From Mycobacterium sp. Z3061 (GTDB taxonomy: Bacteria > Actinomycetota > Actinomycetes > Mycobacteriales > Mycobacteriaceae), in the NCBI RefSeq assembly GCF_031583025.1, contig NZ_CP134062.1:6049234-6113233 (forward strand): a DNA stretch of 64,000 nucleotides, written 5' to 3'. A model generated the notes under the pieces. That model was not told the DNA's origin, did not search any database, and saw only the letters and a program-made list of their open reading frames with translations. This document shows, in pieces, positions 5,392 through 7,758 of the stretch. The position numbers were made by a program, and so were the translations under genes. Positions within the stretch are counted from its first letter, which is position 1; each line of letters begins with the position of its first letter.

Positions 5392-5407
5392 TGGGATGTA
5401 TAACCCA
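5392..5407. promoter_or_regulatory. Putative operator, TGGG-N8-CCCA site 1
   Basis: TGGGATGTATAACCCA, flanked by C and G so the arms extend to five bases. It lies 24 bp before the ATG of the alpha/beta hydrolase and contains a TATAAC hexamer that could serve as a -10. Three similar elements occur within 2.4 kb, upstream of the TetR gene and of the quinone oxidoreductase. Confidence 0.6.
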
Positions 5408-5431
5408 GAATTATCCGCGGAGGAGTTCGAC

Positions 5432-6304
5432 ATGCCGACCGTTCATCATCGTTACGCCACCGTCGACGGTCACCGCCTGTTCTACCGGGAGGCCGGCGAT
5501 TCGCACTTGCCTACAGTGGTTCTGCTGCACGGGTTTCCGACCAGCTCTTACATGTTCCGCAACCTCATTCCCGAACTCGCCGACCGCTTCCACGTCGTGG
5601 CACCCGACCACCTGGGCTTCGGATTGTCCGACGCGCCGTCCGTCGACGAGTTCGACTACACCTTCGATGCACTGTCCGAGTTGACGGCCGGGCTGTTGAT
5701 CGCGCTGGGCCTCGACCGCTACGCCGTGTACGTACAGGATTACGGCGCACCCATCGGCTGGCGCCTGGCGCTGCGCAACCCGTCCGAGATCACCGCGATC
5801 ATCAGCCAGAATGGCAATGGTTATGACGCCGGTTTCGTCGAGGGCTTCTGGAAGACGGTGTGGGCATACCAGGACGCCCCGACCGCCGACAACGAGGCGG
5901 CCGTGCGGCAGTTCCTCACACTGGACGCCACCCGCTGGCAGTACCTGACCGGCGTACCGGATGAGACGCTGGTCGACCCGGAGTGCTGGCATCACGATTT
6001 CGCGCTGATCTCCCGACCCGGCAATGATCTGGTACAGCTCAAGCTGTTTCGCGACTATGCGACCAACGCCCCGCTGTACCCACGCCTGCACGAATACTTT
6101 CGCGCGTCCGGCGTTCCGCTGCTGGCAGTGTGGGGCCGCGGCGACGAGATATTCGGCCCGGCCGGAGCCACGGCTTTCACCACGGATCTGCCGCATGCCG
6201 AAGTCCATCTGCTCGACGGCGGCCACTTCCTGTTGGAGTCGGCACACGCCGAGGTCGCCGAACTGACTCGTAGGTTCCTGGCAGGCAGTCGCGTAGCCGC
6301 ATGA
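5432..6304 (+). CDS. Alpha/beta hydrolase, haloalkane dehalogenase / epoxide hydrolase type
   Basis: Cytosolic alpha/beta hydrolase of 290 residues. The oxyanion segment HGFPTSS is at 33-39. The nucleophile-elbow sequence VQDYGAP places Asp103, rather than Ser, at the nucleophile position, as in haloalkane/haloacetate dehalogenases and epoxide hydrolases. The catalytic His is probably His265 in DGGHFLLE. ATG 5432 was chosen because GGAGGAG lies 7 bp upstream; the open frame extends further but without a ribosome site. The gene is divergent from the MOSC fusion and is preceded by the first TGGG-N8-CCCA element. A HAD-type dehalogenase homologue lies 2.5 kb downstream in the same cluster, which fits catabolism of a halogenated or epoxidised compound (inference). 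Confidence 0.88.
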   Translation: MPTVHHRYATVDGHRLFYREAGDSHLPTVVLLHGFPTSSYMFRNLIPELADRFHVVAPDHLGFGLSDAPSVDEFDYTFDALSELTAGLLIALGLDRYAVYVQDYGAPIGWRLALRNPSEITAIISQNGNGYDAGFVEGFWKTVWAYQDAPTADNEAAVRQFLTLDATRWQYLTGVPDETLVDPECWHHDFALISRPGNDLVQLKLFRDYATNAPLYPRLHEYFRASGVPLLAVWGRGDEIFGPAGATAFTTDLPHAEVHLLDGGHFLLESAHAEVAELTRRFLAGSRVAA

Positions 6305-6313
6305 CGCGTTCAA

Positions 6314-6329
6314 TGGGCTGAATATCCCA
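6314..6329. promoter_or_regulatory. Putative operator, TGGG-N8-CCCA site 2
   Basis: TGGGCTGAATATCCCA with A/T on both sides, so the outer arms read ATGGG/CCCAT. It covers about -49 to -34 relative to the predicted leaderless start of the tandem TetR gene at 6363, consistent with autoregulation. Confidence 0.6.
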
Positions 6330-6350
6330 TAACTGCCGTCTGCCACGGGT

Positions 6351-6356
6351 TAGCCT
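6351..6356 (+). promoter_or_regulatory. Predicted -10 (TAGCCT) of a leaderless tetR transcript
   Basis: TAGCCT fits the actinobacterial TANNNT -10 pattern and ends 6 nt before ATG 6363. Transcription would then begin at or next to the A of the start codon. No Shine-Dalgarno sequence precedes this ATG. Confidence 0.45.
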
Positions 6357-6362
6357 GGCGCG

Positions 6363-7697
6363 ATGGCCGAACCGGAGGTCGAACAGCGGCTGACCGCCAA
6401 GGGGCGCGCCACCCGCGACCGGATCGTGCTGGCAACCGCCGAACTGATCGTCGCGGAGGGCCTGGCGGCGTTCAACATGGACAACGTGCGCAAGGCCGCT
6501 TCGGTGAGCGGTTCCCAACTGGCGCACTACTTCACCGACAAGCGTGCGTTGATCCGTGCCGTCATCGAGCGCCAGATCGGCGTCGTCCTGGACTTCCACC
6601 GCCAGCCGAAGCTGGGCAATCTGGCGACTTTCAACGACTACGAGCGCTGGCTGGATCTCAACATGCGCTACCTGCGCCGCATCAAATACACCGGCACGCC
6701 CACCTATCACGCCCTCGCCGCCCAACTCGCCAAGTCGGATGACTCGACGCGCGCGGCCCTGGCCGCCGGCTATCAGGAGTGGATCGAACTGTTCGAGCAG
6801 GCGATCCGGCGAATGAAGGACAACGGTGTGCTGGTGGCCGCGGCGCAACCGCGCGCTCTGGCATCGGCGCTGGTGTGCGCACACCAAGGGGGTGGCACCC
6901 TGGCGTTCACCTATCGGGCGGAATGGCCGCACGCAGATGCGACCCGGTTTGCCGTCAACTATCTGCGCATGTTCGCCACCGACCCCGCCGAACGCGCGCC
7001 CCGACCGCCCCGGCGTCGCCGCGTCCAGCGCGCACAACAACCGACCGACCATGCCGCCCCGCGGCTCACCCAGAAAGGACTGGCCACGCGAGCCCGGATC
7101 GTCGACACCGCGGCCGGCCTGGTCTTCGAACGCGGGGTGGCCAACACCAGCATCGACGAGGTGCGCACCCGCGCCGAGGTGAGCGGATCGCAGATCACGC
7201 ACTACTTCCGGGACAAACGCGATCTCATCCGTCAGGTCATCGCCAACCGCCGCCGAGACGTCCGAACGTTTCACACTCAGGACCGGATGGGTGCGCTCGA
7301 CAACGTCGATGCCTTGCGTGCGTGGGCCGATGCCTGCATGGCCGACGTGGACACCGTGTATCGACTCGGCGGGTGCGTGTACGGATCGTTGGCCGGTGAA
7401 CTGATCGACGCCGACAGCGAGATTCACGACGACGTCGCCCGTGGTTACGACGAGTGGATCGAAATCTTCTCGACCGGACTGACGTCCATGCGCCGACGCG
7501 GAGATTTGCGCTCCGACGCCGACCCGCGCCACCTGGCGGTGTCGTTGGTCGTCGCCCACCAGGGCGGCGCGATGATCACGCACGCTACCGGTCAGGCAGA
7601 ACCGATGCGCGCCGCGCTCACCGCTGCGGTCGACTATGTGTGTTCTTTCGCACCCGACGCGAAACAGCGGCCGGCGCGACGCCGCACCAAGTCCTGA
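6363..7697 (+). CDS. Tandem (two-headed) TetR family transcriptional regulator
   Basis: A 444-residue protein made of two complete TetR repressors in series, about twice the usual size. The first helix-turn-helix region is at about 10-72 and the second at about 234-296. They are joined by an Arg/Pro-rich linker at 208-232. The two recognition segments are nearly the same (VSGSQLAHYF at 48 and VSGSQITHYF at 273), and each is followed by its own all-helical ligand-binding domain with a matching H-Q-G-G motif. One chain could therefore act like a TetR dimer. TGGG-N8-CCCA elements lie just upstream of this gene and in both flanking operons, so it is the natural candidate to bind them (inference). 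No Shine-Dalgarno is present; a TAGCCT -10 suggests a leaderless mRNA. Confidence 0.9.
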   Translation: MAEPEVEQRLTAKGRATRDRIVLATAELIVAEGLAAFNMDNVRKAASVSGSQLAHYFTDKRALIRAVIERQIGVVLDFHRQPKLGNLATFNDYERWLDLNMRYLRRIKYTGTPTYHALAAQLAKSDDSTRAALAAGYQEWIELFEQAIRRMKDNGVLVAAAQPRALASALVCAHQGGGTLAFTYRAEWPHADATRFAVNYLRMFATDPAERAPRPPRRRRVQRAQQPTDHAAPRLTQKGLATRARIVDTAAGLVFERGVANTSIDEVRTRAEVSGSQITHYFRDKRDLIRQVIANRRRDVRTFHTQDRMGALDNVDALRAWADACMADVDTVYRLGGCVYGSLAGELIDADSEIHDDVARGYDEWIEIFSTGLTSMRRRGDLRSDADPRHLAVSLVVAHQGGAMITHATGQAEPMRAALTAAVDYVCSFAPDAKQRPARRRTKS

Positions 7698-7720
7698 TAC
7701 CCCGGGGCGTCTCGACTTTA

Positions 7721-7736
7721 TGGGATGATCCGCCCA
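7721..7736. promoter_or_regulatory. Putative operator, TGGG-N8-CCCA site 3
   Basis: TGGGATGATCCGCCCA, flanked by TTA and TAA. It lies between the tandem TetR gene and the quinone oxidoreductase. Its start is exactly 22 bp from the start of site 4, about two helical turns, so two repressors would sit on the same DNA face. Confidence 0.6.
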
Positions 7737-7742
7737 TAATAG

Positions 7743-7758
7743 TGGGACGCATAGCCCA
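7743..7758. promoter_or_regulatory. Putative operator, TGGG-N8-CCCA site 4
   Basis: TGGGACGCATAGCCCA, 23 bp upstream of the ATG of the quinone oxidoreductase and paired with site 3. It shares the TGGGAYG left arm with sites 1 and 3. Confidence 0.6.

Follow-up and report, generated by a model that had tools for sequence, protein, structure and literature searches.

A TGGG-N8-CCCA palindrome as the probable operator of a fused or split double TetR repressor in mycobacteria

Little is understood so far of how double TetR repressors are built in three dimensions and how they bind DNA, as the authors of the Mce3R structure write (PMC11667970). Here we consider a further protein of this architecture, encoded in a 64,000-nucleotide stretch of the genome of Mycobacterium sp. 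Z3061 (contig NZ_CP134062.1; the whole stretch is referred to as the window, and positions are those of the window unless stated otherwise), together with a 16-bp palindrome, TGGG-N8-CCCA, that recurs around its gene. We argue from the sequence that these elements are very probably the binding sites of the neighbouring double-headed repressor, acting on detoxification-type genes in environmental mycobacteria. The protein carries two DNA-binding TetR_N and two all-helical C-terminal domains, with matching folds, and both TetR units, M1 (residues 1-212, approximately) and M2 (approximately 229-444), lie within one open frame of 444 codons and are 40% identical to each other.

Relation to described TetR regulators

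The best whole-chain fold match is Mce3R of Mycobacterium tuberculosis (PDB 9b7y), which is likewise mycobacterial and likewise carries two TetR units per chain. At the sequence level, however, only some 50-60 residues match, all within the DNA-binding domain (phmmer E 2.1e-4, 51 residues); full-length similarity of the kind expected of an orthologue was not found, and no phmmer stretch passes alone. Passages of the structure report give the Mce3R sites as 25 bp long, asymmetric and nonpalindromic (PMC11667970), whereas the site of the present regulator is a 16-bp palindrome. Mce3R is moreover a fusion, while here the split two-gene form outnumbers the fused one, in 64 of 81 loci; this locus set comprises the window and 80 of 151 confirmed relatives from a scan of named genomes, all chosen by M1 and part of the 80 cut by contig ends.

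Individual features of the system are found in single-unit regulators. NemR of Escherichia coli shares with M2 the column of its Cys106, and upstream of nemR lies a 16-bp TAGA-N8-TCTA element with the same N8 spacing (1494-1509 of the K-12 locus L275), which we take to be the NemR operator. It differs in being a single-unit protein of about 20% identity, with a TAGA rather than a TGGG half-site and with other regulated enzymes. NemR responds to electrophiles and reactive chlorine and controls a reductase and a glyoxalase gene, as set out in passages of a review (PMC7464077). A number of single TetR proteins from Actinomycetes (L027, L028, L158, L163 and others) are 31-45% identical to M2 or M1 and have one or two N8 palindromes upstream, with TGGG-N8-CCCA shared by those whose recognition helix starts with glycine (Gly type). 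These relatives are nevertheless single units, the majority carry TGGA-N8-TCCA, and their paired operators mostly lie about 30-50 bp apart rather than 22. A further resemblance is to the LmrA/YxaF group: the C-terminal domains score to Pfam TetR_C_13_2 and the YxaF structure 1sgm matches the profile. As for the element itself, exact-string searches of the open-licence literature found TGGG-N8-CCCA in one paper, on Clp/Fur in Xanthomonas (PMC10714925), and TGGA-N8-TCCA in none, and nothing useful was found in that literature on the operator of PA2196.

Operator sites, promoters and conservation

Exact copies of TGGG-N8-CCCA lie at 5392-5407, 6314-6329, 7721-7736 and 7743-7758, all of them intergenic: one 5' of an alpha/beta-hydrolase gene, one 5' of the TetR gene and two 5' of a quinone oxidoreductase gene. 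An earlier note on this DNA had reported four copies with this exact spacing in three promoter regions, and the motif scan of the window agrees for all four, in a number that exceeds chance. The sites and the promoter-like elements, the latter read by eye from the consensus of orthologues aligned by site, are as follows.

5387..5392, + strand: -10-like CATACT within the conserved TGCATACTGGG (71-locus consensus), with operator A directly after
5392..5407, + strand: operator A, TGGGATGTATAACCCA; one or more sites precede the hydrolase in 71 of 81 loci
6314..6329, + strand: operator T, TGGGCTGAATATCCCA, predicted to serve autoregulation; 77 of 81 loci
7712..7717, + strand: -35-like TCGACT, 17 bp upstream of CATAAT; orthologue consensus TGGACA
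7721..7736, + strand: operator Q1, TGGGATGATCCGCCCA, filling the -35/-10 spacer
7735..7740, + strand: -10-like CATAAT, between Q1 and Q2
7743..7758, + strand: operator Q2, TGGGACGCATAGCCCA, starting two bases past the -10 element

The window holds seven exact copies in all; the other three, single copies at 14396, 31496 and 59121, each fall inside a long open frame, and the sharpened consensus TGGGHYRNNYRDCCCA matches none of them. The four operator sites are likewise overlain by long open frames, either on the minus strand or in another frame, so that overlap with an open frame does not by itself discriminate. Across the genome of 6,790,973 bases there are 116 copies (170 of the reversed pattern), a density that predicts 0.04 in a stretch of 2,367 bases; finding four or more there has a naive Poisson probability of 1e-7, and in the whole genome about 0.001 clusters of this kind would be expected. 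One hundred shuffles of the window gave a mean of 1.5 matches against the seven observed, a number that a single shuffle reached. The sharpened form was derived from several hundred sites, those of the window included, in which position 5 from either end is almost never G, position 6 is mainly T or C and position 7 mainly G or A. It matches the genome four times (the reversed pattern 12 times), and three of these matches are the window sites at 5392, 6314 and 7743, from which we conclude that the regulon is local; the fourth, at position 28414 of the contig, lies within a long coding frame that presumably encodes a PPE protein. The motif is thus not dense in unrelated spacers; had it been, this would have told against the compact local regulon of the tandem TetR which the earlier note had suggested and which the conserved sites, the scan for the operator pair described below and the four sharpened matches uphold.

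The operators lie inside or just 3' of the promoter-like sequences. At the hydrolase promoter the operator follows without a gap on the orthologue consensus TGCATACT. For the oxidoreductase promoter the consensus is TGGACA-17-CATAAT (TCGACT-17-CATAAT in the window), and most of the 18 loci with one exact Q site retain the -35 element, the -10 element and the downstream operator, Q2. No clear conserved -35 element was seen before M1 in the site-aligned orthologous loci. Because of where the operators lie, repression by occlusion is predicted, with RNA polymerase the likely target of the block. The 22-bp step between the starts of Q1 and Q2 had been read as two proteins on one DNA face; the spacing itself is conserved, while that geometry is possible only, and the step may simply be set by the -10 element lying between the two operators.

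That the sites are kept in orthologous promoters, the conservation for which the earlier note had asked, is borne out by the 81 loci. A search for the regulator in 61 genomes found a match in 14, with both halves in 11 of 37 genomes of the same genus, and in the loci around these matches the motif precedes the hydrolase or M1, or follows M2. The nearest named relative, in Mycobacterium gordonae CTRI 14-8773, is 97% identical in the first TetR half. When all 256 palindromic arms around N8 were compared over 47,160 intergenic bases, TGGG gave 327 copies, spread over all 81 loci, against 16 for the runner-up, TGCA; the spacer is equally fixed, no other TGGG..CCCA spacing from 0 to 20 exceeding 10 copies. 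Since the loci share common ancestry, the 327 copies are not independent events. The N8 core is variable: each of the five main site classes, which comprise 54-77 loci, shows between 27 and 49 distinct cores. A site precedes M1 in 77 loci and the hydrolase in 71, and 73 loci have one after M2; in 54 of the 71 loci a second site lies 54-126 bp upstream of the hydrolase site, towards a divergent MOSC-ferredoxin reductase gene; this distal operator is preceded, reading leftward, by a CATATTCT-like element. Of the 55 loci with two exact copies in the stretch covered downstream of the TetR genes, 41 space them by 22 bp, 13 by 23 bp and one by 35 bp. Four loci (L085, L106, L107 and L110) have the pair farther downstream of M2, in three of them directly before the oxidoreductase gene, and where DNA is inserted between M2 and the oxidoreductase (L085, L106, L110) the pair stays with the oxidoreductase.

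In the reverse test, a scan of 394 genomes of the class with the pair pattern alone gave matches in 10 of 26 genomes of the same genus and in one other; all 12 same-genus places adjoin M1-M2, and the other is a repeat without M1-M2. The pair is absent from 16 of the 26, only part of which were checked for the regulator. Two loci deserve separate mention. L053 (G035:C31) carries a second, divergent M1/M2 pair, convergently arranged, with its own TGGG-N8-CCCA about 51 bp before M1, and L118, from Mycobacterium genavense, has a reduced cluster in which a partial hydrolase, M1 and M2 were detected and the site before M1 is kept. Copies of TGGG-N8-CCCA also lie within the disulfide reductase gene of several orthologues (L043 at 12429, L045 at 5518, and others); they cover apparent conserved active-site codons and were set aside as a coding coincidence, one that would inflate naive motif counts.

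The two TetR units and a residue-base association

The regulator gene and the codons that matter for what follows are these.

6363..7697, + strand: tandem (fused) TetR, 444 amino acids; two TetR_N and two TetR_C_13 stretches
6510..6512, + strand: codon of Gly50, which opens the recognition helix of M1 (model helix 50-56; residue-base pattern)
7185..7187, + strand: codon of Gly275, which opens the recognition helix of M2 (model helix 275-281)
7374..7376, + strand: codon of Cys338 in M2, in the NemR Cys106 column of the alignment, where M1 has Pro

The AlphaFold2 model (predicted local distance difference test 87.9, predicted template modelling score 0.88) has a disordered linker at 221-231, and the two recognition helices are nearly identical, SGSQLAHYF (helix 50-56) and SGSQITHYF (helix 275-281). 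M1 and M2 are fused in 17 of the 81 loci and are separate neighbouring genes in the other 64, in a different frame in 51 of these and in frame with a stop in 13; among the 51 frame-shifted splits the start codon overlaps the M1 stop at -1 in 23 and at -5 in eight. On a tree of both halves the fused or split label needs at least five changes, four of them forced by well-supported branches. The halves themselves form sister clades (92%, and 88% in a second tree) within a larger group of single TetRs, and would thus stem from tandem duplication of one TetR.

We compared this larger group for the residue that opens the recognition helix, using the 96 regulators, M1 and M2 excluded, that were left of 99 rows once two gap rows and a non-TetR fragment had been removed. 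In a first set of 32 distant single TetRs, in which the rule was seen, all six with Gly in S-x-S-Q had TGGG-N8-CCCA upstream and none TGGA-N8-TCCA, whereas among the 26 non-Gly members 17 had TGGA and none TGGG; no copy of any of four control arms was found. A second set of 64, from a search of 296 genomes (60 with matches), held three Gly-type proteins, two with TGGG and one with neither, and 61 others, of which 41 had TGGA, one TGGG and 19 neither. Pooled, the nine Gly-type regulators comprise eight with TGGG and none with TGGA, and the 87 non-Gly regulators 58 with TGGA and one with TGGG, that is, 66 concordant cases, one discordant and 29 with neither, while for eight control arms the number of regulators with a copy ranged from 0 to 5. 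A TGGG site within 400 bp upstream is hence found for 8/9 of the Gly type against 1/87 of the others. The sole discordant case, L215 (G280), has a Ser helix, SSSQVYHY, with TGGG-N8-CCCA at -109.

This pattern suggests a correspondence in which a single residue of the repressor determines a single base of its site. The second set, however, includes near relatives of proteins in the first, and the two Gly-type matches in it come from an orthologous group already represented there. On the tree the Gly-type proteins form a single clade, apart from L163, which sits among non-Gly types, so that there is one independent contrast when starred branches are used and two on all branches, too few for any significance to be attainable; reaching it would take at least six informative pairs. 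A search of 12 genomes for a second independent Gly-type set near L163 found only G112 itself. The association is therefore strong yet evolutionarily thin, and we offer it as a prediction. In its full form, to which we would give somewhat less than even confidence, the rule would be that a helix opening with Gly reads TGGG, and one opening with Ala, Ser, Lys, Arg or Pro recognises TGGA, the N8 spacing being unchanged; the tandem TetR would then be a protein with both halves of the Gly type, in which a single chain reads a symmetric site and only M2 senses. The organism's own genome also encodes a TetR relative, L265 (C1:5195671-5197646), with the helix TSKSQLFHY and TGGA-N8-TCCA at -52 and -17, an arrangement that recurs in several genomes of the same genus.

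Mechanism, inducer and alternatives

We propose the following account, which builds on what the DNA presents directly, namely the sites, their conservation, their overlap with promoter-like sequence, the pattern of fusion and splitting and the residue-base association. Taken as a whole, it is very likely in our view that TGGG-N8-CCCA, or more sharply TGGGHYRNNYRDCCCA, is the operator of the tandem TetR repressor at 6363-7697. When no inducer is present the regulator would occupy the sites and exclude RNA polymerase from its own promoter, from that of the hydrolase and from that of the quinone oxidoreductase-HAD-disulfide reductase-cupin run. M1 and M2 would probably act as a 1:1 pair, each placing its recognition helix on one TGGG half-site, and the fusion in the window would allow one chain to form the whole reader. 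M2 is the likelier sensor half, because it keeps a cysteine at the NemR Cys106 position, with M1 as its DNA-binding partner; this column is Cys in M2 and in all eight aligned single relatives and Pro in the window's M1, and the M2 motif GC-x-[YFH]-G-[SA]-L includes this Cys in all 81 M2 sequences. The inducer would probably be an oxidant, a quinone or another electrophile that the enzymes remove.

A number of observations weigh against this account. Operator T is absent from 4, A from 10 and Q, near M2, from 8 of the 81 loci; Q1 (7721) departs from TGGGHYRNNYRDCCCA in one inner base, and that consensus was partly learned from the window's own sites. Mce3R, the best whole-chain solved match, superposes loosely (438 columns, 12% identity, template modelling score 0.52, root-mean-square deviation 11.1), and single TetRs fit the individual halves better than it does. 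The inner bases of the half-sites vary by site class without one consistent orientation, so there is no consistent asymmetry of the kind that would prove an M1:M2 heterodimer. Finally, passages of the NemR review tie Cys106 to reactive chlorine and place the response to electrophiles on other cysteines, Cys21/Cys116 (PMC7464077).

The question of the inducer turns on the enzymes of the cluster, whose genes are listed here.

3634..5316, - strand: MOSC domain fused to a ferredoxin/NAD(P)H reductase (Pfam MOSC, YiiM_3-alpha, FAD_binding_6, NAD_binding_1, Fer2)
5432..6304, + strand: alpha/beta-hydrolase with Asp nucleophile, haloalkane dehalogenase / epoxide hydrolase-like (Pfam Abhydrolase_1, solved relatives)
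7782..8840, + strand: NAD(P)H:quinone oxidoreductase-like protein of the zinc-type dehydrogenase superfamily (Pfam ADH_N, ADH_zinc_N; NCBIfam quinone_pig3 match below cut-off)
8859..9548, + strand: HAD hydrolase of the haloacid dehalogenase type II family (TIGR01428, 2yml)
9551..11002, + strand: pyridine nucleotide-disulfide oxidoreductase, mercuric reductase / lipoamide dehydrogenase-like (family searches, solved relatives)
11018..11464, + strand: cupin protein, ending the rightward run; in the flanks of 56/81 loci
11472..11870, - strand: convergent glyoxalase-fold protein; in the flanks of 50/81 loci

The MOSC-ferredoxin reductase, with FAD, NAD and 2Fe-2S domains, is encoded in the flanks of 72 of the 81 loci, and its divergent gene is probably also a member of the regulon, given the second upstream site on its side in 54 of 71 loci. 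No operator was seen in the window before the glyoxalase-fold gene. Directly left of the cluster are a Dyp-type peroxidase gene followed by one for encapsulin (Linocin_M18) at 1062-2890, and an SDR gene at 2842-3633; directly to its right are a GntR/UTRA regulator and then a luciferase-like monooxygenase at 11923-13737.

One alternative concerns function and is compatible with the operator assignment: the genes would form a dedicated dehalogenation or epoxide-degradation pathway induced by a halogenated substrate or product. The earlier note had read the gene set in this way, as degradation of a halogenated or epoxidised compound. Part of the evidence favours that reading: the HAD protein passes the TIGR01428 cut-off (182.1 bits against 125.4) and among solved structures is best matched by an L-haloacid dehalogenase (2yml, E 6.9e-66); the hydrolase, in turn, falls in the haloalkane dehalogenase / epoxide hydrolase group and keeps the Asp nucleophile (QDYG aligned with HDWG), and the flanks of the 81 loci contain the HAD gene in 69 and the hydrolase gene in 72. 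The hydrolase, however, has Phe and Tyr at the columns of DhaA Asn41 and Trp107, the halide-stabilising pair of haloalkane dehalogenases, and a divergent group of loci (L139-L141, L143-L146) has operators and the disulfide reductase, with no hydrolase or HAD gene detected. We regard a dedicated pathway of this kind as doubtful. A response to oxidants or electrophiles would fit at least as well and is the reading we prefer, because of the oxidoreductases, the disulfide reductase, the glyoxalase and cupin proteins and the NemR-like cysteine; in view of the strong dehalogenase similarity of the HAD protein, a halogenated or chlorinated inducer is still conceivable.

It is also conceivable, and to our minds unlikely, that M1 and M2 are independent homodimeric repressors that share the operator, in which case the fusion would merely tether them and two chains would make the functional reader or readers. 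The near-symmetry of the operator would suit such an arrangement, and the identical helix start of both halves tells against the 1:1 pair, as two Gly-type helices would read the same half-site and separate homodimers could form; Mce3R, likewise a double TetR, dimerises further, as passages of its structure report state (PMC11667970). Against this, M2 adjoins M1 in every one of the 81 loci even though these were chosen by M1, many start and stop codons overlap, the two genes have repeatedly been fused or split, and the NemR-type cysteine is found in M2 only.

Far less probable is that the sites belong to another regulator, for instance to a CRP-like protein such as Clp, with the TetR gene merely a target. 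A TGGG-N8-CCCA element of Xanthomonas is proposed as a Clp binding site in passages of one report (PMC10714925), but the present sites follow the TetR pair throughout the genus, among the distant single TetRs the site accompanies eight of the nine that share the helix start and one of the 87 that do not, and a global regulator should leave many promoter sites where the sharpened form has four matches in the genome.

The regulon interpretation of this locus thus appears largely right, and what we find most interesting is the double TetR, split or fused, with its palindromic site and the residue-base association of its relatives. The family would add to Mce3R a second and different case of a double TetR, one with a palindromic site, a small conserved regulon and relatives in both forms, and closely related species in which the halves are split or fused offer a natural series for studying how double TetRs evolve. 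If the residue-base association holds, the operators of a large group of uncharacterised TetR repressors would be predictable from one residue.

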